A stretch of 43,732 bases of DNA from an uncultured Pseudomonadota bacterium (GCA_903921785.1 CAIXRH010000129.1:1-43732), one strand, 5' to 3'. Shown: positions 32,475 to 43,732, numbered from the stretch's first letter. Made by a program: numbers and translations. The notes: generated from the sequence alone by a model not told the origin.

Positions 32475-34184
32475 ATGTTCGCGCTCCTCGCCTCCCTCGC
32501 CCTCGCCGACGATCGGTTCTTCCTCGACGCCGGACCGGAGCAGGCCTCCCTGGCCGACCTGGAGGCACGCGGCGCCGTCCACGGGCGCACGGGCGCGCTG
32601 GTCGTCGCGCTCGACGACCCGCACGCCCTCGACGGCGATCCGCGGATCGCCCGCGTGGAACGCCGCCGCGGCCGGGTGGTGCGCGTCGTTCCCGCCGCGG
32701 GCGTCGACGATCTGGCCCTCGCGCGCGACCTCCACGGGCGCCCTGGCGTGGCCTGGGTGAACCCCGACCTCAAGCTCCGCCTTCGCCCCGCCTCGATCCC
32801 GAATGACCCGCTCTACCCGGACGAATGGCACCTCGACGACACCGAGCAGGGCGGGCGCACCAACGGGATCGACATCAACGCGCCCGAAGCCTGGGAGACG
32901 GCCACCGGCGCGGGGGTGACCATCGCGGTGATCGACTCCGGCGTGCAGCTCGACCACCCCGACCTCGTGGTGACCCCCGGCCACGACTACATCGACGACG
33001 ACGACGACCCCACGCCCGGCACCGACAGCTCCTCCCCGCACGGCACCGGCGTGGCCGGGATCGCGGCGGCGCGAGGCAACAACGGCATCGGCGTGGCGGG
33101 CGTGGCCTGGGAGGCGGATATCTACGCGATCCGCCTCATCGGCGGTGACTCCTCCACCAGCGACCTGTACGACAGCTTCGCCGAGGCGGTGGACGCCGGC
33201 GCCGACGTCCTCTCGAACTCCTGGGGCTTCTACGGCTGCGAGGGCGTGCCCTCGATGGCCACGTTCCAGGAGATGTTCAACTACGCGGAGAAGCACGGGC
33301 GCGGCGGCCTCGGCTCGGTGGTGGTCTTCGCCGCCGGCAACGACGACTGTGACAACTCCGACGACGCGATGCTCGACAACCGCTACGCGTTCGTGGTGGC
33401 GGCGCTCGAGTGGAACGACGTGCGCGCTTCCTACAGCAACTATGGCGAGAACATCGACATCTCGGCGCCGACCAGCGTGCTCACCACCGACATGAGCCCC
33501 GGCGGCTACGGCAGCTACGGCGGGGATGACGCCTACTCGGACGGCTTCTCCGGCACGAGCGGGGCCACTCCGGTCGTCAGCGGGGTGGTGGCGCTCATGA
33601 TCGAGGCCAACCCCCGCATCACCGCCAAGCAGATCCGCACCGCGATCTGCGAGAGCGCCGTGCGCAACGACCTCGAGCTCGCCGAGTACGACAAGTACGG
33701 CTGGAGCCCCTACTACGGCTATGGCCGGATCGACGCCGCCGCCGCCGTGAACCTCGTCGCCGACACCGCCCCGGCCGCCCCGGTCCTCACCGCCGCCACC
33801 GAGGCCTACCCGGATCGCGTCTTCCTGAGCTGGGAGGCGGCGATCGACCCCGACGGCGACGTCACCGAGTACGTGGTCCACTGGTGGCTCGACGGGGAGG
33901 ACGGCGGCGCGTCGGACGGTCACGTCACCTCCGACCTGCGCTACGACCTCACCGGGAAGGTCGCCGCGGGGGACGTGGTGCACTGGACCGTGGTGGCGGA
34001 CGACCCCTGGGGCGCGGGTGAAACCAGCGTTGAAGGAACGCTCACCGTCCTCGAAGTGCCGGAGGCACCCGCGGATACGGGCGAGGCCCCGACCCCGTCC
34101 ACCTGCGCGACGGCCGAAGGCAGCGCGGCGGCGGGGCTGCTGGCGGTCGCGGCGCTGTTGGGGCGGCGGCGCCGTCGAGCGTAG
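32475..34184 (+). CDS. Subtilisin-like serine protease (S8) with C-terminal sorting-like tail
   Basis: A 569-residue secreted protease. A short signal peptide (MFALLASLALA) is followed by an inhibitor-like propeptide (to about residue 110), then the S8 domain with the full triad: Asp154 in AVIDSGVQLDHPDL, His189 in SSPHGTGVAGI and Ser362 in FSGTSGATPVVSG. The oxyanion Asn lies in VVFAAGNDD. A fibronectin type III-like domain follows (about 435-530). The end reads TCATAEGS, a hydrophobic stretch and GRRRRRA, which matches the Cys-hydrophobic-Arg pattern of MYXO-CTERM signals and suggests cell-surface retention. The -10 TACACT lies 8 nt upstream. It probably degrades extracellular protein. Confidence 0.93.
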   Translation: MFALLASLALADDRFFLDAGPEQASLADLEARGAVHGRTGALVVALDDPHALDGDPRIARVERRRGRVVRVVPAAGVDDLALARDLHGRPGVAWVNPDLKLRLRPASIPNDPLYPDEWHLDDTEQGGRTNGIDINAPEAWETATGAGVTIAVIDSGVQLDHPDLVVTPGHDYIDDDDDPTPGTDSSSPHGTGVAGIAAARGNNGIGVAGVAWEADIYAIRLIGGDSSTSDLYDSFAEAVDAGADVLSNSWGFYGCEGVPSMATFQEMFNYAEKHGRGGLGSVVVFAAGNDDCDNSDDAMLDNRYAFVVAALEWNDVRASYSNYGENIDISAPTSVLTTDMSPGGYGSYGGDDAYSDGFSGTSGATPVVSGVVALMIEANPRITAKQIRTAICESAVRNDLELAEYDKYGWSPYYGYGRIDAAAAVNLVADTAPAAPVLTAATEAYPDRVFLSWEAAIDPDGDVTEYVVHWWLDGEDGGASDGHVTSDLRYDLTGKVAAGDVVHWTVVADDPWGAGETSVEGTLTVLEVPEAPADTGEAPTPSTCATAEGSAAAGLLAVAALLGRRRRRA

Positions 34185-34253
34185 CGCCGCAGCGGTGCAC
34201 GGCGCGGGCGGGGCGGATTTCGGGGTAGGGTGGCGGCGACCCCCGGATTTCCC

Positions 34254-36212
34254 ATGCGCCTGCTCCCCGTCTGCCTGCTGGTCGGCTGCGTCATCGACAG
34301 CGGTCTGAACGCAACCAAGACCCCGCGCGAGTTCGACACAGCAGACTCCGGGTTCGACCCCAACGGGGACACCGACACCGCCGAGCTCACCGACGAAGCG
34401 TGCAACGGCAAGGACGACAACGGCGACGGGCAGGTCGACGAGGGCTTCCCCGACGAAGACGGCAACGGCCGCGCCGACTGCCTGGACAGCTCCTGTCCGG
34501 CGCTCGACCTCGGCACCGCCGGCGCGGTCACGGTCGACCCGGTCTGCGAAGCGACCTCCGGTGGCGCTGTCGCGGACGCATGGAACGTGAAGGTGAAGTG
34601 GACGGTCGACCGCGTCACCGGCGGCCTCAGCGAGGCGGCGACCACGCCGGTGATCGGCAACCTCGACGACGACGACGGCGACGGCGACATCGACGAAGAC
34701 GACACCCCCGATGTGGTCACCGTGATGATCAACACCACCACGGCAACCGCCGCCATCGCCGCGTTCGACGGCGCCAGTGGCGCCGAGAAGTGGGTTTATG
34801 CCGGCGCGGGCTTCGCCACCGGCGTGGCCATCGCCGACGTCGACGCCGACGGCACCCCCGACGTCGTCGGCTACGACTCCGCGGGCCATCCGATCGCCCT
34901 GTCGAACACCGGCACGCTGAAGTGGACGGGCAACGCCGTGATCGACCTCAACGTGCTCCCGCTCCTGAGCGTCGCCGACCTCGACGAAGACGGCATGCCG
35001 GAGGTGATCGCCTACGACACGGTCTTCGGCGGGAAGAACGGGAAGAAGCAGTTCCAGATGGCGGGCGGCGGCGGCACCTACGCGATGGCCGCGGTCGGCG
35101 ACGTGGACCTCGACGGCGACCAGGAGCTCGCCTTCGCGGGCCGCCTCTACGACAGCGACGGCACGCTGCTCTGGAACAGCGGCGAGACGGGGTCCTACGG
35201 GATGTGGCCGATCATCATCCAGGCGGACGGCGATCCGGAGGCGGAGATCGGCTTCGTCGGCAGCCAGTGGACCCTCTGGGACCACGACGGCACCAACATC
35301 TACAAGCGCACCTACGGCACCGCGCAGCCGGGGCCCCCCTGCGCCGGCGACTTCGACGGCGACGGGATGGCCGAGGTCGCCTGGGGCGCCAGCGCGACCT
35401 TCGTCGAGTACGAGCTCGACGGCACCAAGGTGTGGTCGGTGCCGATGGACGACTCGTCGGGGCTCGCCGGCTGCTCCGGCTACGACGTCGATGGCACCGG
35501 CGGGCTGGAGATCCTCTTCGCCGACCAGACCACGTTCAAGATCTTCGATGGTCGCACCGGCGCCACGAACTACACCAACTCGCGCCACTCCTCCGGCACC
35601 GCGTTCGAGTACCCCTCGGTCGCGGACATCGACCACGACGGCCACGCCGAGATCGTCTTCGTGAGCAACTCGGTGATCAAGGCCGCTCCGCACGCGGTCA
35701 CGGTCCTCGCCCACAACGGGGGCGGCTGGCCCGCCTCGGGGAGCACCTGGGGCATCCACGACTTCGCCATCACCAACCTCAACCCCGACGGTTCGGTGCC
35801 CGCCAGCCCGGACCCCTACTGGAACAAGTACAACGTGTACCGGGCGCGCGTCGCCGCCGACCAGCCGGGCACCCCCGACCTCGTCGCGGACATCACCGAC
35901 GTGTGCGTCGCCGACTGCGACTACGGGCCCGCCGCGGTGGGGGCGTGGGTGTGGAACAAAGGCTCGGTGGACGTGGCGGCGGGCGCCACGCTGGAGCTCT
36001 ACGCCCTCGATGGCGGCAGCGAGCGCCTCGTGGCGAGCAGCACGCTCCCGGCGCTCCCCGCCGGCACCTCCCTCGACGGTGTCCAGTTCGACCTCGTCAT
36101 CGGCGACGTCGGCGCGGACGGCTTCCGCGTGAAGGTCGACACCGGCGCCTTGGTCGCTGAATGCGACGAGAGCAACAACGAGGCGGACTGGCTGGACACG
36201 ACCTGCCCGTGA
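34254..36212 (+). CDS. FG-GAP/VCBS-repeat surface lipoprotein with CARDB-like domain
   Basis: A 652-residue predicted lipoprotein (MRLLPVCLLVGC, lipobox LVGC). An Asp/Thr-rich linker (FDTADSGFDPNGDTDTAE) leads to a metal-binding motif of MopE type, EACNGKDDNGDGQVDEG. The main body (about 110-520) has repeated calcium-binding FG-GAP blades: DVDADGTPDVVGYD, DLDEDGMPEVIAYD, DVDLDGDQELAFAG, DFDGDGMAEVAWG, DIDHDGHAEIVFV. These should form a beta-propeller. The C-terminus (about 545-650) resembles a CARDB adhesion domain ending EVCDESNNEAD-like (AECDESNNEADW). It probably acts in surface binding. It is convergent with the oxidoreductase gene. Confidence 0.83.
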   Translation: MRLLPVCLLVGCVIDSGLNATKTPREFDTADSGFDPNGDTDTAELTDEACNGKDDNGDGQVDEGFPDEDGNGRADCLDSSCPALDLGTAGAVTVDPVCEATSGGAVADAWNVKVKWTVDRVTGGLSEAATTPVIGNLDDDDGDGDIDEDDTPDVVTVMINTTTATAAIAAFDGASGAEKWVYAGAGFATGVAIADVDADGTPDVVGYDSAGHPIALSNTGTLKWTGNAVIDLNVLPLLSVADLDEDGMPEVIAYDTVFGGKNGKKQFQMAGGGGTYAMAAVGDVDLDGDQELAFAGRLYDSDGTLLWNSGETGSYGMWPIIIQADGDPEAEIGFVGSQWTLWDHDGTNIYKRTYGTAQPGPPCAGDFDGDGMAEVAWGASATFVEYELDGTKVWSVPMDDSSGLAGCSGYDVDGTGGLEILFADQTTFKIFDGRTGATNYTNSRHSSGTAFEYPSVADIDHDGHAEIVFVSNSVIKAAPHAVTVLAHNGGGWPASGSTWGIHDFAITNLNPDGSVPASPDPYWNKYNVYRARVAADQPGTPDLVADITDVCVADCDYGPAAVGAWVWNKGSVDVAAGATLELYALDGGSERLVASSTLPALPAGTSLDGVQFDLVIGDVGADGFRVKVDTGALVAECDESNNEADWLDTTCP

Positions 36213-36233: not shown

Positions 36234-37646
36234 TCAGCCCTCCAGCCCCCACCGCGCCGCGAGCTCCGTCCGCAAGAGCCGGTCGGGGTCGACCATCTTG
36301 CGGAGCGTGTCGAACCGCGCGAGGCGCTCCTGGCCCCACGCGCGCTGCACGTGATCGGGGCGGATCATCCCGTCCTTCGCCGGGTAGAACCGGCCGCCGG
36401 CCTCGCAGACCATGTCGCTGATCTCGTGCAGCGTCTTGGTCAGGGTGGCGCGGTTGCTCGGGGTGATCGGGAAGTCGAGCGCGAGGCTGTAGCCATCCAG
36501 CCCGTGGGAGAGCAGGTAGGCGTCCGGCCGGTGGCGCTTCATCACCCCGAGGTAGCTCGGCACGTCGCGGGCCTGGGTGAGCCGGAGGATGTTTCGGAAG
36601 ACCTCCTCCGCGTTCTCCTTGGGCACGAACGGCTGGTACTGCACGAACCCATGGGGCCGGTAGGCGTCCCGGAAGGTGGGCACGTAGTCGAGGAGGAAGT
36701 TGAACGCGACGAGCCCCTGGTCGTACTCGCCCTTCGGCCCGAAGCGCGCGACGGTGCTCTTGGCGAAGTTCACGAAGCGCATGCCCCAGTTCGTGTTGAA
36801 CTTGGCCAACAACGTGCCGACCAGCGCCTTGGGGACGCCCATGATGTGCCCGGGGAGGTCCTGGTGGGCGGGCTCGAAGTCGGGCGAGGGGTCTTCGCCT
36901 TCGTGCAGGTAGTTCGCCGAGTGGGGCTCGCCGCGGCCGAGGGCGGCGCCGCCGACGGTGCAATCCAGCCAGCTCACGCAGTAGTCGGACTTCTGGGTGT
37001 ACTCCTCGAACCACTGGAACTGTTCGCGGAGGTTCGCCGCGTAGTGGCCCTTCACCCGCAGCTTGGTGCTGTGGAGCCGCTTGAGCTTCACCCGGATGCG
37101 GCGCCAGGCGCCGAGCATCCCGAAGCCGCCGATGGCGGCGTTGAACAGGTCGGCGTTCTCGTCGCGGTTGACGAGGTAGACCTGCCCGTCGGGCGCCACC
37201 AGCTCGCCTTCGAGGATGTGGTCGCCCCAAGGCCCCACCTTGAAGCAGTTCTTTCCGTGTACGTTCATCGACGCGATGCCGCCGATGGTCGGGAACATGG
37301 TGCCGGGCACCACCGCCGGCCAGTAGCCATCCTTGAGGAAGGTCCGCCACATCTGCTCGATGGTGACGCCCGGCTCCAGGTCGGCGATGCCGGTGTCGGG
37401 GTTCCAGGCCAGCACCTTGCGCATGCTGCGGGTGTCGACCACGAGGCCGCCGCCGTTCATCGCGGCGTCGCCGTAGGAGCGGCCCGAACCACGCATGGCG
37501 ATCGTGAGGCCGTGCTCACGGGCGTAGCGGAAGCTCGCGGCGAGCTCCTCGCCGTTCTTCGGCTCGGTGAACACCGAGACGGAGCACGACGCATAGCCGA
37601 AGCCGTCGAAGACTTTACGGGGAAGTACGGTGGAGGCGGGGAGCAT
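36234..37646 (-). CDS. FAD-dependent oxidoreductase, DprE1-like
   Basis: A 470-residue flavoenzyme of the vanillyl-alcohol-oxidase superfamily. The FAD-binding motif MRGSGRSYGDAAMN (51-64) and the DprE1-type FPTIGGIASMNVHGKN (His130) are clear, and the C-terminal KDGMIRPDHVQRAWG and FDTLRKMVDPDRLL fit. In actinobacteria DprE1 oxidises decaprenylphosphoryl-ribose at C2', and a short-chain dehydrogenase (DprE2) reduces the keto product to arabinose. Exactly such a dehydrogenase lies 7 nt upstream, and its stop overlaps GAGG before this ATG. The pair likely epimerises a polyprenyl-linked or free sugar for the envelope. The substrate may differ from that in mycobacteria. Confidence 0.85.
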   Translation of the reverse strand: MLPASTVLPRKVFDGFGYASCSVSVFTEPKNGEELAASFRYAREHGLTIAMRGSGRSYGDAAMNGGGLVVDTRSMRKVLAWNPDTGIADLEPGVTIEQMWRTFLKDGYWPAVVPGTMFPTIGGIASMNVHGKNCFKVGPWGDHILEGELVAPDGQVYLVNRDENADLFNAAIGGFGMLGAWRRIRVKLKRLHSTKLRVKGHYAANLREQFQWFEEYTQKSDYCVSWLDCTVGGAALGRGEPHSANYLHEGEDPSPDFEPAHQDLPGHIMGVPKALVGTLLAKFNTNWGMRFVNFAKSTVARFGPKGEYDQGLVAFNFLLDYVPTFRDAYRPHGFVQYQPFVPKENAEEVFRNILRLTQARDVPSYLGVMKRHRPDAYLLSHGLDGYSLALDFPITPSNRATLTKTLHEISDMVCEAGGRFYPAKDGMIRPDHVQRAWGQERLARFDTLRKMVDPDRLLRTELAARWGLEG

Positions 37647-37653
37647 GGGCGCC

Positions 37654-38391
37654 TCAGATGTTGGTGCGGCGGAAGATCACCGACGGCACGTGGCGGATGG
37701 TGAGCATGATGGGCTTCCAGGCGATGGGCACGTAGCCCTCCCCCGTTCCGCCCTTGGCGAGGGCGATGGCGCCGCGAGCGGCCTCTTCTACCGGGATGAT
37801 CAGCGGGAGCTTCAGCCCCTCGGTCATCGCGGTGGAGACCGGCCCGGGCTTCACCGTGACCACGTGCACGCCGTAGCGGAAGAGGCGGTTGCGCAGCGCC
37901 TCCAGGTAGGTGGTGAGCGCGGCCTTGCTGGTGTGGTAGGCGGGGTTTCCGCGCCGGCCGCGGTCGCCGGCGACGGAGGAGATGCCGACCAGTGTCCCGG
38001 CGCGGCGGGCCTCCATGAACGCGCCAGCAGGGTTGAACCACGCCATGGCGCCGAGGAGATTCACCTCGATGATCTCGCGGTCCTTCCCGAAGTTGTACTC
38101 GCTCTCTTCCACCCGGGGCATGATGCCCGCGTTGTAGATGAGGCAGTCGAGCCCGCCGAGATCGGCGACGATGCGGTCGAAGAGCCCGGGCGCTTCGTCA
38201 TAGTTCTTCACGTCGTGGGCGTAGACCAGCACCTTCTCGGGCCCGCCGCACGCGGCCTGGAGCGCCTCCAGCTCCGGCAGCCGGCGGGACACCGCGGCCA
38301 CGCGCACGCCTTCGGCGGCGAGCTGTCGGACCATCTCGGCGCCGATCCCCGTCGATGCCCCGATGACGGCGGCGGTGCGGAATGCGGCCAT
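37654..38391 (-). CDS. Short-chain dehydrogenase/reductase, possible DprE2-like partner
   Basis: A 245-residue classical SDR with the NAD(P)-binding GASTGIG (11-17), YNAGIMP, and the catalytic Ser138/139, Tyr152 and Lys156 (ISSVAG, then YHTSKAA). A helix-rich C-terminus (LPLIIPVEEAARGAIALAKG and a hydrophobic end with RHVPSVIFRRTNI) fits enzymes acting near the membrane. GAGGAG lies 7 nt before the ATG. It sits 28 nt after the anti-sigma stop and 7 nt before the DprE1-like gene. Acting together, the two would invert a sugar hydroxyl by oxidation and reduction. The DprE2 role is inferred from pairing, since SDRs are too general to name alone. Confidence 0.82.
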   Translation of the reverse strand: MAAFRTAAVIGASTGIGAEMVRQLAAEGVRVAAVSRRLPELEALQAACGGPEKVLVYAHDVKNYDEAPGLFDRIVADLGGLDCLIYNAGIMPRVEESEYNFGKDREIIEVNLLGAMAWFNPAGAFMEARRAGTLVGISSVAGDRGRRGNPAYHTSKAALTTYLEALRNRLFRYGVHVVTVKPGPVSTAMTEGLKLPLIIPVEEAARGAIALAKGGTGEGYVPIAWKPIMLTIRHVPSVIFRRTNI

Positions 38392-38419
38392 GTTGCGCTC
38401 CTCGAAGGGCGGGCAACTA

Positions 38420-39322
38420 TCACGGGGCGGGGGCGTCGCACCGCCGGAGGGCCGGCTCCTCCTCGCCCAGCCGCCCAAGGGCGGAGAGGGCCTGGAGGTG
38501 GGGCAGCGCGCCCGCACAGTCGCCGACCGCGAGGCGCAGCCGGGCGGCCATCCGGTGGAGCTCCTCGGCGCGGGTCACGTCGGGGGCGGTGAGCGCGCGC
38601 TCCGCGGCGGCGAGCGCCTCCGCGTCGCGTCCGGCTTCGAGGAGCGTCCCGGCGCGGAGCGCCAGGAGCTCCGCGGCGACCGCGCCGTCGGCGTCCGTCC
38701 GACCGAGCGCCCCGTCCACCTCGACGAGGAGCGCCTCGGGGGAGACGACGCCCTGCAGGGCGAGGGTGCGGCGGAGGGCGCCGGCGGCGCTCACCGGCTC
38801 GCAGGTGCGGCTCTCCCCGACGGTGAGGTAGCTGAGCCCGCCGCGCACACAGTCGACCGAGACCTTCCCGTGCCTCACGGTGACGGTGGTGCCGAGGGCG
38901 CCCCGATCCACGTCGAAGCCGGTGCCGACGACGCGCACGGTGCCTTCGTCCGTCCGTACCGCGAGCTGCACACCCTGCTTCGGCTCGACCTCCACGCTGA
39001 GCTTGCCGCGGCGCCAGTCGAGCGTCATGTCGCGCGCGTAGCCCACCACCGCGCCTTCCCCCTCGGCGTCCACCTGCACCTTGTCGCCGAGGGCCACTGC
39101 GCCGGAGTGGTCGAGCGGACGCGCCACATCGGTGGGCGCACGGAGCGCGAACAGCGCGGCCGCGGCGAGCGCCAGCGCCACGCCGGCGCCGGCGACCCAA
39201 CGCGTGCGCGCCGGACGCCGCCCCTGCCGCCGGGCGAGCTCGGCCTCCACCCGGGCGAGCTGCTCCGCCGAGGGCCGGGTGGCGTCGCGGGTCTCCGCGA
39301 GGACGTCGTCGTAATCACGCAT
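38420..39322 (-). CDS. FecR-like transmembrane anti-sigma factor
   Basis: A 300-residue protein: a short cytoplasmic N-terminus (MRDYDDVLAETRDATRP), one transmembrane helix (about 43-61) and a periplasmic FecR domain (about 75-185) with LAVRTDEGTVRVVGTGFDV, VTVRHGKVSVD and LTVGESRTC. The C-terminal third is helical with TPR-like pairs (AAELLALRAGTLLEAGRDAEALAAAERAL). The gene overlaps the ECF sigma gene by 8 nt, the usual sigma/FecR coupling. Known FecR proteins relay a signal from an outer-membrane partner to the sigma factor. Here no TonB-dependent receptor is nearby; surface lipoproteins are. Confidence 0.83.
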   Translation of the reverse strand: MRDYDDVLAETRDATRPSAEQLARVEAELARRQGRRPARTRWVAGAGVALALAAAALFALRAPTDVARPLDHSGAVALGDKVQVDAEGEGAVVGYARDMTLDWRRGKLSVEVEPKQGVQLAVRTDEGTVRVVGTGFDVDRGALGTTVTVRHGKVSVDCVRGGLSYLTVGESRTCEPVSAAGALRRTLALQGVVSPEALLVEVDGALGRTDADGAVAAELLALRAGTLLEAGRDAEALAAAERALTAPDVTRAEELHRMAARLRLAVGDCAGALPHLQALSALGRLGEEEPALRRCDAPAP

Positions 39323-39869
39323 CGTCGGGGTCCTCCACGAGGTGCAGCACGCCGAGCCCCACGCGCCCGGCCTCCGCCCGAAAACTCTCTCTCGCCAGCC
39401 GGAGCCGGCTGCGCACCGTGCCCTCTGGGAGACCCAGGATCGTCGCGACCTCCGAGGCGGCGCGCTCCTCCAGGTCCATCAGCACAATGACCTCCCGGTG
39501 GGCCTCCGAGAGGGCGTCGAGCACCCGGTAGACCAGGCGGACCCGCTCGCGCTGGGCGGGAGAGTCTGCCGAGGGGGGCGCGGCGTGCTCCATCGGCGCG
39601 CCGGGGACCCACTTCCGCCACCACGCGCGGCGGCGATGCTCCCGCACCACCCGGGTCGTCACCCCCCAGGCGAAGGCCTCGATCGGCGAGTCCGGCTCGA
39701 CGTCGTCGAGCCGGCGCAGCACCACCATCAGCGCGTCGGACGCGGCGGCCTCCGCGTCGATCTGCCCCGCGCCGAGGCGCGTGCACCACCCGGTGACCAG
39801 CGGCAAGAGCCGCCCGAACACCGCTTCGCGGTCGTTCGAGGTCGGGGTCGGGTGGGGCACGACACGCAC
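39315..39869 (-). CDS. ECF sigma factor
   Basis: A 184-residue sigma-70-family factor. Region 2 covers about residues 15-80 (VFGRLLPLVTGWCTRLGAG, DAEAAASDALMVVLRRLDD, IEAFAWGVTTRVVREHRRR). Region 4 covers about 110-165 (VLDALSEAHREVIVLMDLEE and the helix-turn-helix ATILGLPEGTVRSRLRLARE). It starts with GTG; GGAGG about 10 nt upstream overlaps the end of the FG-GAP lipoprotein gene, which stops 6 nt before. Its 3' end overlaps the FecR-like gene. Translational coupling to both neighbours is likely. The regulon is unknown, but the downstream DprE1/DprE2-like genes are in the same run. Confidence 0.87.
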   Translation of the reverse strand: MRVVPHPTPTSNDREAVFGRLLPLVTGWCTRLGAGQIDAEAAASDALMVVLRRLDDVEPDSPIEAFAWGVTTRVVREHRRRAWWRKWVPGAPMEHAAPPSADSPAQRERVRLVYRVLDALSEAHREVIVLMDLEERAASEVATILGLPEGTVRSRLRLARESFRAEAGRVGLGVLHLVEDPDDA

Positions 39870-39875
39870 GTCCGT

Positions 39876-41234
39876 TCAGCCTCCGCAGACGCCGAGGACG
39901 AAGTGTACGTTGGTGTACGCGTCGAAGAAGGCCACGTCGCCGCAGCCATCCGCGTTCACGTCGCCGGCGGCGAGGTTCGCCCCGTAGGACGAGCTCCACG
40001 GCGCGATGTCGAAGTCGGTGTGCTCGGCGGCCGCGAACCCGTCCGCCCCCCGCAGCGACCAGGAGAGCCGGGCCGCCGAGTAGTAGCTGTGGTTGGTGGT
40101 CTCGTAGTGGTACAGGCTCTCCAACGCGTCCTTGGTGCCGTCGCCATCGAGGTCGTAGCCGACCACGCCGATCGGGTAGTTCTCGAAGTCGCTGATGCGC
40201 AGGAACTCGGCGTGCCCCACGCTCGGGTCGTAGAACTGCAGGCCGTCGGTGCCGCCGCTGACCAGCTCATCGGTCCCGTCGCCGTCGTAGTCGGTGTTGA
40301 ACCCGAAGAGCACGCCGTCGGCGGAGAAGCGCAGGTTGGCATAGGCCGTGAGGTAGAGGTACTCGGTGCCCCAATTGTCGTACAGCTCAATGGAGTAGTC
40401 GAAGCCGCCGCCGTAGGCGTCTGCGAAGATGGCCGACTGCCGGCCGTTCCCGTCGAGGTCCGCGGCGACCATCGCGTAGGCGTACAGGTAGGTGTAGGCC
40501 ACGTAGGACCACGTGAACCCGAGCGCGCCCGCGCTATCCCGACCGAGCACGTCGATCCGGCCGGTGCCGTCGTAGCTCTGTCCGGCCACGATCACCTCCG
40601 GCGCGCCGTCGCCGTCCAGGTCGGCGGAGCTGAGGGTCATCGGGTAGGAGCCGTCCGGCGGAGACCAGTTCACCTCGGCGTCGAACCGACCGGAGGCGCC
40701 CGCGAACAGCGAGATGGTGGTGCTGGAGGCCGCGACGATGTCGGGGGTGCCGTCGTCGGTGAGGTCGACCAGGATGGGCGAGCTGTAGTACCCGTTCGCC
40801 GCGCTCGTGGTCACCGTCGGGGTGCCGAACGTGCCGTCGCCGTTGCTCGGGTAGACCGAGATGGTGAGCAGGTACGCGGTGCCGTCGGAGGTGATCTCGG
40901 GCAGGGTGACGATGAGATCGTCGAGCCCGTCGCGGTTCATGTCGGCGAGCCACACCCCGGTGGCCATGCCGTAGATCCCGCCCTCGACCACGGTGCCGTC
41001 CGCTCCCGGGGCCCAGGCCGGGGCCGGCGCGCCCGAGTCGGTGTCGGTGTCGGTGTCCGTGTCCACGGCGGTGTCCCCGCCGGAGTCGACGGTGTCGTCG
41101 CCGGAGTCGTCCGTCGCGGTGTCGACCGCGTCGCCCGTGTCGCAAGGCTGGGACGGGGCCGCTTCCGGGGAAGCCGGGAGGTTCAGCTCGACGACGCTGC
41201 AGCCGTTGAGGGCGAGGGACAGAAGAAGGCTCAT
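39876..41234 (-). CDS. FG-GAP repeat surface lipoprotein, sigma-linked
   Basis: A 452-residue predicted lipoprotein (MSLLLSLALNGC). A striking acidic linker follows (residues about 30-68, runs of Asp-Thr and Asp-Ser-Gly such as DTDTDTDTDSG). The body has FG-GAP calcium-binding blades: DMNRDGLDDLIVTLP, DLTDDGTPDIVAAS, DLDGDGAPEVIVAG, DYDGDGTDELVSGG, DLDGDGTKDALESL, ending DVNADGCGDVAFFD and VLGVCGG. It is predicted to fold as a beta-propeller. It is a paralogue of the next gene upstream, sharing the HY-T-HS and GC-D-A-D-VGVC endings. It stops 6 nt before the ECF sigma gene. A sensory role for the sigma system is a hypothesis from gene order. Confidence 0.82.
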   Translation of the reverse strand: MSLLLSLALNGCSVVELNLPASPEAAPSQPCDTGDAVDTATDDSGDDTVDSGGDTAVDTDTDTDTDSGAPAPAWAPGADGTVVEGGIYGMATGVWLADMNRDGLDDLIVTLPEITSDGTAYLLTISVYPSNGDGTFGTPTVTTSAANGYYSSPILVDLTDDGTPDIVAASSTTISLFAGASGRFDAEVNWSPPDGSYPMTLSSADLDGDGAPEVIVAGQSYDGTGRIDVLGRDSAGALGFTWSYVAYTYLYAYAMVAADLDGNGRQSAIFADAYGGGFDYSIELYDNWGTEYLYLTAYANLRFSADGVLFGFNTDYDGDGTDELVSGGTDGLQFYDPSVGHAEFLRISDFENYPIGVVGYDLDGDGTKDALESLYHYETTNHSYYSAARLSWSLRGADGFAAAEHTDFDIAPWSSSYGANLAAGDVNADGCGDVAFFDAYTNVHFVLGVCGG

Positions 41235-41336
41235 CGGGGATCTCCGGGGGTTGGGGGCTTCGGGAGCGCCGCGACGCTCCCTTCTCCCTCTCTTGGCGGC
41301 AGCGCCGCGATCCGATCACAGGTGGTCAGGAAAATG

Positions 41337-42683
41337 TCAGGGGGTCGGGGTGGGGCACACGCCGACGGCGAGCCAGGGCTCCAGGCTGGTGTCGAGATAC
41401 GCCGCGTCTACGCAGCCATCTCCAGTGAAGTCGGCCGCGGTGAGGACCTCACGGAACTGCCCCATGGTCGGAGGTCCCTGGTCGTACTCCGCAGGCACCA
41501 AGGGGCTGAGGCCACCGTCGGCGAGGCTGGGCTGGAGCTGGAGGCGGCTCGACGAGCTGTGGTCCGTCGAGACGTAGTGGCCGAGGAGCTCCAGGGCGTC
41601 GGGGACGCCGTCGCGGTCGAGGTCGACGCCGGAGAGGCCGTAGGCGCCGATGGTGTTGGGGTCCGAGCTCCGCGCCACGGTGCGCGTGTCGGTCGCGGGG
41701 TTCCAGGTGACGAGGCCGAGGCTCCCGGTGGTCACCACCTCGGCGAGCCCGTCGCCGTCGAGGTCGGCGCCGAAGCCAGCCACGGGGACGTCGTTGGCCG
41801 CGCGGATGAGCCCGAGGGTCCCGAAGGACGCGGGCGAGGCGGCAGCGGGGTCGACCGCGAGGTAGCGGCTGGAGGTCGGGTCGGCGGAGACCTCCGCGAG
41901 GATGGCGACAGACCGGGGGGAGTCGGGCACGGTGTAGGCGAAGATCGCCCGCAGATCGGTCGGCGCGTCGTCCTCGACCTCCACGTACAGCGCGGGCGTC
42001 GCGCTCCCCTGCATCGACCACACCTGGAGGACGTAGGCGCCCTTCACCCAGGTCCATGCCACCAGATCGTCGACGCCGTCGCCGGTGAGGTCCATCACCG
42101 CGAGGAGCGGGGAGGACTCCACGAGGCCGAGCACCTTCGAGGCGCCGAAGCCCGCGCCATCGCCGGGGAACCAGACCAGACCTTCGTTCGCGCGCGCGAT
42201 CAGGTCCACGAAGCCGTCGCCGTCGAGGTCTCCGAGGATGGCCGCGTAGAGCAGCGTGTCGGGAGCGGACTCGGCGCCGGCGCCGAGCCCGGTGGCGGTG
42301 CCGTGCCAGATCGAGAGTCGGTCGGCGGTCCCCCCGCTGTTCACGTCGAGGTAGACGAGGTCTTCGTACCCGTCGTGATCGAGGTCGGCGCTGGACAACC
42401 ACGCGGCGCTCAGGGTGCCCCGGCTCGCCAGCCGCGTGGGCTCCCCCACGGACCACGCCGGTAGGGCCGGCCCGGTGTCGACGGCGGTGTCGCCGCTGTC
42501 GCCGCCACCAGGGTCGGCGGTGTCCAGGAGGACCGCGGTGTCGTCCCCGCCGGTGTCGACGGCCGCGGTGTCCGCTGCGGCGGGGTCCACGCCCACCTCG
42601 GCGCTGTCGAGCAGGGTGACGCGGATGTCCTCGCAGCCGATGAGGAGCGGGAGCAGGGGCAGGGCGGAGCGCACCGTGATCAC
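41337..42683 (-). CDS. FG-GAP repeat surface lipoprotein, paralogue
   Basis: A 448-residue predicted lipoprotein. Its N-terminus reads ITVRSALPLLPLLIGC after the GTG at 42683 (GTG 42674 is an alternative), with lipobox LIGC. An Asp/Thr/Gly linker follows (AADTAAVDTGGDDTAV and DSGDTAVDTG). FG-GAP blades include DLDHDGYEDLVYLD, DLDGDGFVDLIARA, DLTGDGVDDLVAWT, DLDGDGLAEVVTTG and DLDRDGVPDALELL, and the end is DFTGDGCVDAAYLD with AVGVCPTPTP. Domain order, blade spacing and the terminal motif match the downstream gene, indicating tandem duplication. No enzyme domain is visible. It follows the Pro/Ala-rich gene by 23 nt and is probably co-transcribed with it. Confidence 0.78.
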   Translation of the reverse strand: MITVRSALPLLPLLIGCEDIRVTLLDSAEVGVDPAAADTAAVDTGGDDTAVLLDTADPGGGDSGDTAVDTGPALPAWSVGEPTRLASRGTLSAAWLSSADLDHDGYEDLVYLDVNSGGTADRLSIWHGTATGLGAGAESAPDTLLYAAILGDLDGDGFVDLIARANEGLVWFPGDGAGFGASKVLGLVESSPLLAVMDLTGDGVDDLVAWTWVKGAYVLQVWSMQGSATPALYVEVEDDAPTDLRAIFAYTVPDSPRSVAILAEVSADPTSSRYLAVDPAAASPASFGTLGLIRAANDVPVAGFGADLDGDGLAEVVTTGSLGLVTWNPATDTRTVARSSDPNTIGAYGLSGVDLDRDGVPDALELLGHYVSTDHSSSSRLQLQPSLADGGLSPLVPAEYDQGPPTMGQFREVLTAADFTGDGCVDAAYLDTSLEPWLAVGVCPTPTP

Positions 42684-42706
42684 TTGGCGCCACGCGCCCG
42701 GATCGA

Positions 42707-43732
42707 TCACTGCCCGAACCTCAAACCCAGCGAGGCGCGCGTGGAGAGCGCGGATGGCTGCTTCGTTGCGGCGTCGATGGTGAGGTCCTGGAGGTCCTGC
42801 GTGCCCACCATGCCCAGGTCGACGGCGAGGCCCGGGAACAGCCGCCGCTCCACCCCGAGCTCCGCCTCCACGCCGACGCCCCAGGCTTCTCGCTCGCCGA
42901 GGACGTCGACGATGGCCCAACGCTCCGCCACGACGCCGCCCCCGGCGCGCACGGCCCACCCGTCCGCGGGAGCCCAGCGCCCGCCCAGGTGGACGGCGCC
43001 GGAGGCGAGCCCGAGGCTCCCCTCGGTCCCGGCGAACTCGGTCGGCTCGAAGAGGTTGGCCGCGACGGCCAGCCACGTCATGCCGAAGCCGACCCGCACG
43101 GACGCCTCCCCGCCGGGGTTGACCGCCAGGTCGGGGCGATAGACGGCGGCTCCGGCGAGGGTGCCGCTGAGGGCGATGGGGACGCGGGCGGGCGGCGCGG
43201 AGGACGCGGCGGGGACGGCCCCCTCCGCAGGAACCGCTTCGGACGATGCGCGGCCCTTCGCCATGGACGACGCCGCCTTCGGATCGGGCGACGCCGGCAT
43301 CGGCGCGGGGGACGCCGGCATCGGCGCGGGGGAAGTAGCGGCCACGGACGCGGAGGATGGCGACGCGCTCACCGCCGCAGGGGACGGCGCGCCGGTGGGC
43401 GCGGGAGCGGGGGCGGAAACGGCGGGCACCGCGACGGTGGACGCAGAGCCCGGGTTGGACGTGGTGGGTACCGCGACGGTGGACGCGAGCGCGGCGGTGG
43501 CCGCCGCCGCTCGCGGGTTCGCGCCGGAGGCGCTGGGCGCCGCGGGCGGGTTCGAGGCGGAGGCCGGAGCGGGCGCCGACTTCGTTGCGGCGTTCGCCGA
43601 CTTCGACGCGGCGGCGGCGTACGGAGCGGCCGCCGACTTCGTTGCGGCGGCGGCGGGCGGGGACTTCGACGCGGTAGCGGCGGAGGCGGGGGCGTCCGGC
43701 GTCCGGCTAACTCTATTCGACGAAGCGGCCGA
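42707..43732 (-). CDS. Outer membrane barrel-like protein with Pro/Ala-rich linker (cut by window edge)
   Basis: The reading frame is open from the stop at 42707 to the window end, so the 5' end is missing; at least 341 residues are present. The upstream part is a long low-complexity region rich in Ala, Pro, Ser and Lys with small repeats (AATKSA twice, STVAVP twice, SPAPMPA twice). The last ~165 residues (from about VPIALSGTLAGAAVY) alternate hydrophobic and polar residues in beta-strand fashion and end in RASLGLRFGQ, as outer-membrane barrels often do. A start inside the repeat region (GTG 43429) is possible but unlikely. It may span the periplasm through the linker. Function unknown. Confidence 0.6.
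   Translation of the reverse strand, partial: SAASSNRVSRTPDAPASAATASKSPPAAAATKSAAAPYAAAASKSANAATKSAPAPASASNPPAAPSASGANPRAAAATAALASTVAVPTTSNPGSASTVAVPAVSAPAPAPTGAPSPAAVSASPSSASVAATSPAPMPASPAPMPASPDPKAASSMAKGRASSEAVPAEGAVPAASSAPPARVPIALSGTLAGAAVYRPDLAVNPGGEASVRVGFGMTWLAVAANLFEPTEFAGTEGSLGLASGAVHLGGRWAPADGWAVRAGGGVVAERWAIVDVLGEREAWGVGVEAELGVERRLFPGLAVDLGMVGTQDLQDLTIDAATKQPSALSTRASLGLRFGQ
43290..43331. repeat. Exact 21-bp tandem duplication in the Pro/Ala-rich region
   Basis: Two identical 21-nt units, 43290-43310 and 43311-43331, each starting GACGCCGGCATCGG, encode the SPAPMPA repeat. They are in frame, so copy number could vary without disrupting the protein. Confidence 0.7.

Follow-up and report, generated by a model that had tools for sequence, protein, structure and literature searches.

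Cell-surface signaling of the FecIRA type (FecA/FecR/FecI, PupB/PupR and FpvA) brings together, in one operon, an extracytoplasmic function (ECF) sigma factor, a FecR-domain regulator and an outer-membrane barrel with an N-terminal periplasmic domain, the barrel being that of a TonB-dependent receptor (plug and 22 strands). FecR-type regulators without such a receptor are known as well, with the source of the outside signal remaining open, as in the case of the Leptospira ECF/FecR-like pair LIC_12757/LIC_12756 (PMC12155086). The closest odd receptor known is that of the PUMA3 system of Pseudomonas aeruginosa (VreA/VreI/VreR; PMC2729926), in which a small receptor of a non-TonB type is encoded beside the sigma factor. 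Here, we analyzed a 43,732-nucleotide stretch of DNA from an uncultured Pseudomonadota bacterium (GCA_903921785.1 CAIXRH010000129.1:1-43732; hereafter, the window), in which genes for a predicted small barrel, two FG-GAP lipoproteins, an ECF sigma factor and a FecR-type anti-sigma factor are followed by a short-chain reductase (SDR) and a flavin adenine dinucleotide (FAD) oxidoreductase resembling DprE2 and DprE1, respectively. Taken as a whole, the sequence comparisons, structure models and analogy with the known systems make it reasonably likely that this is a conserved signaling cassette in which the small barrel would stand in place of the TonB-dependent transducer, and to which the SDR-DprE1 pair is unrelated.

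The window is the entire contig C129 of the genome bin G000 (7.48 Mb, 362 contigs). The genomes used for comparison are metagenome-assembled genomes (MAGs), the nearest named ones being environmental and labelled Deltaproteobacteria or uncultured proteobacterium. A first-pass annotation of the window described seven co-linear genes, and all seven open reading frames (ORFs) were indeed found on the minus strand between 43732 and 36234 with that spacing, namely, a 4-nt overlap (GTGA) between the barrel gene and the first FG-GAP gene (FG-GAP1), a 102-nt gap to the second (FG-GAP2), a 6-nt gap to the sigma factor gene, an 8-nt sigma/FecR overlap, a 28-nt gap to the SDR gene and a 7-nt gap to the DprE1-like gene. 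Pfam and NCBIfam back the named domains of every gene except the barrel gene, which has no Pfam match. The seven genes are nevertheless two separate units rather than one conserved operon: the co-linearity of the first five is beyond chance, their order being kept elsewhere, and the link to the last two is not. In particular, the order barrel-FG-GAP-(FG-GAP)-sigma-FecR recurs at five loci, one each in the genomes G017, G014 and G009 and two further copies in G000 (contigs C35 and C21), and SDR-DprE1 is found behind none of them. Positions 38420-43732 are thus probably one copy of a cell-surface-signaling cassette that is conserved in the order of the host.

It is the barrel gene that constantly accompanies sigma/FecR. 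Of the 38 FecR-selected loci of the order for which upstream sequence was available, 33 have a same-strand gene with the barrel or its N-terminal (N) domain 5' of the sigma factor gene, as judged with profiles made from a subset of the loci on which they were scored; within those loci, the two profiles match nothing else. The N domain was found in 31 of 284 genomes of the phylum, which we infer to be Myxococcota, and all of these belong to this order, except for two that belong to the class; wherever a strong match is followed by enough downstream sequence, sigma/FecR adjoins. The first-pass annotation saw no outer sensor in the locus, and this absence does not stand, given the conservation of the upstream barrel gene. 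The window contig ends within the linker of its copy of this gene, and because it stops there, only the barrel, that is, the C-terminal half of the protein, was visible to the earlier reader, with the periplasmic domain hidden.

The barrel genes of G014 and G017 are complete. Behind a signal peptide, their products carry an N domain of ~80 residues (signature, LP.GE....W..AL..AGL ... W.L ... P....RE.VA.LAASL.R), which a long Pro/Ala linker connects to the C-terminal barrel; no credible Pfam match was obtained for any part of the relatives of this gene. The input for AlphaFold2 was the G014 orthologue (locus L098) with five sequences, and the alignment depths were 5 and 2 in all, because the contig scan with the sigma alignment yielded six loci. 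In the resulting model, a signal helix is followed by a folded N domain, the linker is disordered and the barrel has exactly eight strands, at a pLDDT of mostly 83-96. Foldseek aligned the barrel with NspA, the OmpA domain and OmpX at E values of 3e-8 to 3e-6 and TM-scores, normalized by target, of 0.63-0.74, so that the orthologue model represents an eight-stranded barrel of the OmpA/NspA type. Modelled alone, the N domain reached a pLDDT of 89, with its elements in the order short strand-helix-strands-helix. The truncated N-terminal half of a barrel gene at the start of contig C29 is most similar to the G014 and G017 orthologues and, chosen solely for this similarity, is probably the missing N-terminal part of the window's protein; the window end shares no 25-mers with either C29 or C289, the contigs carrying truncated N-terminal halves. 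More generally, barrel-gene linkers repeatedly break contigs, both in G000 and in its relatives, and G000 has two N-terminal (C29, C289) and two C-terminal halves (C35, window end) that are not joined.

The two regulators are more conventional. The sigma factor scores 57.6 bits against the cut-off of 42.9 for TIGR02937 and matches Pfam PF08281 and PF04542, and the FecR protein scores 31.2 bits against 24 for PF04773. The latter comprises a cytoplasmic N terminus of ~41 residues, one transmembrane stretch (~42-62, by inspection), the FecR domain and a C-terminal helical region, with no STN match; its orthologues are 52-62% identical. The 8-nt overlap of the two genes is common to the well-called copies of the cassette. 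Collectively, these sequence comparisons and models show the predicted barrel with its putative periplasmic head, the sigma factor and the FecR-type regulator to be one inherited cassette.

By contrast with the barrel gene, the FG-GAP genes vary. FG-GAP repeats score above the curated cut-off in both lipoproteins; the 4-nt overlap of FG-GAP1 with the barrel gene is kept in G017, and FG-GAP2 orthologues, 44-50% identical, occupy the same place in G017 and G014. Elsewhere in the wider order, sigma/FecR is often followed by another FG-GAP protein, as at nine loci. Of 52 sigma/FecR cassettes, 21 (40%) have an FG-GAP ORF on their own strand no more than 4 kb away, as against a background of 8% for intervals drawn at random from unrelated loci within the same family of genomes; therefore, the linkage is real, but not obligatory. 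The proposal of the first-pass annotation that the lipoproteins supply the signal accordingly survives only in part: their association with sigma/FecR holds, including in the five loci of conserved order, whereas their status as obligatory parts does not. The FG-GAP lipoproteins, which are of the calcium-propeller type, are frequent, variable add-ons, often inserted into the cassette or appended to it. FG-GAP proteins as the essential sensor were considered and rejected, more than half of the cassettes having none nearby. The conserved leader of FG-GAP2 contains the box TGATCGG-N12-CCGCCAAGAG and then a hairpin whose arms differ between the window, G017 and G014 and yet stay paired (GGGAGCG/CGCTCCC, GGAGGC/GCCTCC and GGAAGCC/GGCTTCC, respectively); the box is present again at the C21 cassette of G000. 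This leader is a candidate promoter, attenuator or translational element; an Rfam search of the region returned no match.

Compared with FecIRA-type systems, the cassette has an eight-stranded barrel with no plug, lacks iron-uptake genes and detected STN similarity in the N domain, and includes no TonB-dependent receptor among the proteins of the operon, as searched with Pfam and NCBIfam. VreA of PUMA3 consists of an N-terminal STN domain and a TolA/TonB-like C-terminal domain with no barrel, whereas the cassette protein combines a barrel with a different N domain. The Leptospira pair is similar in having a FecR-like regulator with no identified TonB transducer, but no outer-membrane partner is known there, whereas the cassette has a conserved one. 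In the literature consulted on FG-GAP proteins with ECF/FecR, or on FecR in Myxococcota, we found no description of this barrel cassette.

The mechanism that we propose, to which we assign an even chance, is a lineage-specific form of signaling in which an eight-stranded barrel, to which a Pro/Ala linker tethers a periplasmic domain not described before, would replace the TonB-dependent transducer and control the ECF sigma factor via FecR, with exchangeable FG-GAP propeller lipoproteins acting as a surface-side ligand or adaptor. The small outer-membrane barrel would take the place of the transducer; a surface ligand or state, possibly presented by an FG-GAP lipoprotein, would reach the linker-tethered periplasmic domain; this domain would pass the signal to the periplasmic domain of FecR; FecR would then release the sigma factor; and the freed sigma factor would re-express at least its own cassette and the lipoproteins. 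The FG-GAP lipoproteins may be either presenters of a ligand or products of the response. The path from the periplasmic head through FecR to sigma release is modelled on the well-studied systems FecA/FecR/FecI and PupB/PupR (PMC7186176). The size and place of the N domain are right for an STN-type signaling domain, and because it has neither a Pfam STN match nor a clear structural one, the route from this domain to FecR is suggested by position and architecture.

Several observations weigh against this reading. The scoring of the barrel and N-domain profiles on loci that partly gave rise to them has been mentioned; in addition, 5 of the 38 loci have sigma/FecR with no recognisable barrel gene in the flank examined, and sigma/FecR is missing near about nine N-domain genes that score weakly, some of which have a barrel and which possibly represent an orphan or divergent branch of the family. 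For the barrel, the N domain, sigma and FecR, the distances are correlated with one another (r 0.48-0.66, permutation p 0.0005), with barrel-FecR (r 0.63) on a par with sigma-FecR (r 0.60), but such correlation is equally expected of genes merely inherited together. The N domain matched no Pfam family, STN included, and a Foldseek comparison with solved structures gave nothing below E 0.07 and no clear STN match; in VIA-align, the best Z was 5.6 (PqiC), within the range of common arrangements, so that the absence of a match is not evidence of differing folds. No shared ECF promoter motif was apparent 5' of the barrel genes, bipartite word counts being no higher than in shuffles. The lack of a nearby FG-GAP gene in over half of the cassettes means that these proteins are not essential parts, and the relatives are MAGs with many contigs broken in the linker.

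Some of the same observations would fit an envelope-remodelling operon with its own sigma and anti-sigma factors, in which the barrel and FG-GAP proteins are only targets of the sigma factor and FecR senses the periplasm directly. Autoregulated ECF operons carrying their own targets are common, FecR carries its own helical region at the C terminus, the FG-GAP genes vary and the N domain shows no detectable STN similarity. However, the barrel gene hardly varies, in contrast to the FG-GAP genes, and lies 5' in every case; where a periplasmic domain precedes a long linker, moreover, a transducer is to be expected more than a passive surface protein. We therefore regard this alternative as unlikely, although it deserves more weight than the two considered below, and retain the barrel as the candidate transducer.

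The oxidoreductase pair has a different history. The DprE1-like protein can be aligned from end to end with Mycobacterium tuberculosis DprE1 in the PDB (E 3e-50) and scores 261 bits on the NCBIfam DprE1 model, below the equivalog cut-off of 500; for the SDR, the closest solved structure is DprE2 (E 1e-21), and the NCBIfam DprE2 score of 110 bits is likewise below the cut-off of 250. The residues of the FAD site and catalytic center of M. tuberculosis DprE1, His132, Lys134, Gln336 and Lys418, are kept in the alignment as H130, K132, Q338 or Q336 of a QYQ motif, and K424, whereas Cys387 is replaced by Ala389. The pair thus resembles the DprE1/DprE2 epimerase of mycobacteria and of Gram-negative arabinofuranose (Araf) systems (PMC11127046) in full-length homology, gene adjacency and catalytic residues, and differs from it in the subthreshold scores, the Cys387 substitution and a genomic setting that is normally behind gluQ (glutamyl-Q tRNA(Asp) synthetase) and not with arabinan or sigma genes. 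In nine relatives, gluQ is the upstream neighbor of the pair, mostly 19-28 nt before the SDR gene, and in none of the relatives examined does sigma/FecR lie beside SDR-DprE1. Judging from sequence, the pair is a conserved polyprenyl-phosphate-sugar epimerase-like unit unrelated to the signaling cassette.

These contexts bear directly on the model of the first-pass annotation, a single operon, with FG-GAP lipoproteins providing the input to sigma/FecR and with sugar-lipid epimerisation of the DprE1/DprE2 kind as the output. The single strand and the gaps of 28 and 7 nt make co-transcription plausible here, and a UbiA-family decaprenyl-phosphate phosphoribosyltransferase, with which polyprenyl-phosphate pentofuranose synthesis begins, is encoded on contig C75 (locus L139, 1396-2298; NF008977, 265 against a cut-off of 234), unlinked to SDR-DprE1, which renders the pentofuranose pathway plausible in G000. 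However, every relative examined keeps sigma/FecR without the oxidoreductases, a pattern that the annotation itself had named as refuting its model; the five orthologous or paralogous cassettes lack them, and the nine gluQ-linked pairs are all apart from sigma/FecR, which leaves this model very improbable; SDR-DprE1 may be co-transcribed with the cassette in this genome, though it is not part of the system. Nor is the pair unusual for a Gram-negative bacterium, as had been supposed: with DprE1-like proteins (E <= 1e-40) in 155 of the phylum's 284 genomes, the pair is ordinary, and the Gram-negative Araf homologues were already published. The DprE1-like proteins of the phylum fall at two levels of identity to the window's protein, >40% and about 30%, and two of those in the ~30% class obtain higher scores with the NCBI DprE1 model (345 and 441 bits), a distribution that suggests two paralogous subfamilies.

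The FecR-SDR join might instead be an artefact of assembly, with the physical linkage false, given that the metagenome bin has 362 contigs, that gluQ precedes SDR in relatives and that the junction falls at the FecR stop codon, where relatives have the gluQ stop codon. Yet no repeat at the junction recurs anywhere else in the genome, the best match outside it being 22 nt, and the gluQ gene of G000 lies in the interior of contig C34 with an unrelated lipoprotein gene behind it, not at a contig end. With gluQ apart on another contig, the junction is peculiar to this lineage or, with lower probability, an assembly join; because no repeat was found, we take it to be a real lineage-specific rearrangement and consider a misassembly improbable.

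Table 1. Features of the signaling cassette and the adjoining oxidoreductase pair in the window
Feature	Coordinates	Strand	Remarks
Barrel gene, C-terminal part	<43732..42707	-	5' end lost at contig end; barrel at residues ~180-341 of visible frame, preceded by Ala/Pro/Ser linker
FG-GAP lipoprotein 1	42710..41337	-	Lipobox LLIGC, Thr/Asp linker, FG-GAP repeats; PF13517 60.5 bits, PF01839
FG-GAP2 leader	41318..41235	-	TGATCGG-N12-CCGCCAAG box, then hairpin GGGAGCG/CGCTCCC, GGAG-rich start region
FG-GAP lipoprotein 2	41234..39876	-	Short signal, ...LNGC; PF13517 90.2 bits
ECF sigma factor	39869..39315	-	GTG start; TIGR02937, Pfam sigma regions 2 and 4
FecR-type anti-sigma	39322..38420	-	PF04773; FecR domain 96-154
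Junction, signaling cassette to oxidoreductase pair	38419..38392	-	Length class like gluQ-SDR gap in relatives
DprE2-like SDR	38391..37654	-	Pfam adh_short; best PDB match DprE2; separate unit
DprE1-like FAD oxidoreductase	37646..36234	-	PDB DprE1 match, full length; separate unit

Two further loci were noted on the same contig. On the minus strand, a second ECF sigma factor gene (5532-5023) overlaps a likely anti-sigma gene (5026-3665) and is unrelated to the FecR cassette. On the plus strand, 32475-36212 encodes a subtilase, whose C-terminal tail is Arg-rich and sorting-like, and an FG-GAP/CARDB lipoprotein, convergent with the DprE1-like gene.

The comparison removes a false lead, namely, the DprE1/DprE2-like enzymes as a conserved output under sigma control. 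It also provides, for a whole order of uncultured bacteria, a concrete and testable sensor candidate, the conserved small barrel with its own predicted periplasmic domain. If this barrel signals, a barrel of the size of OmpA would suffice to build surface sensing.

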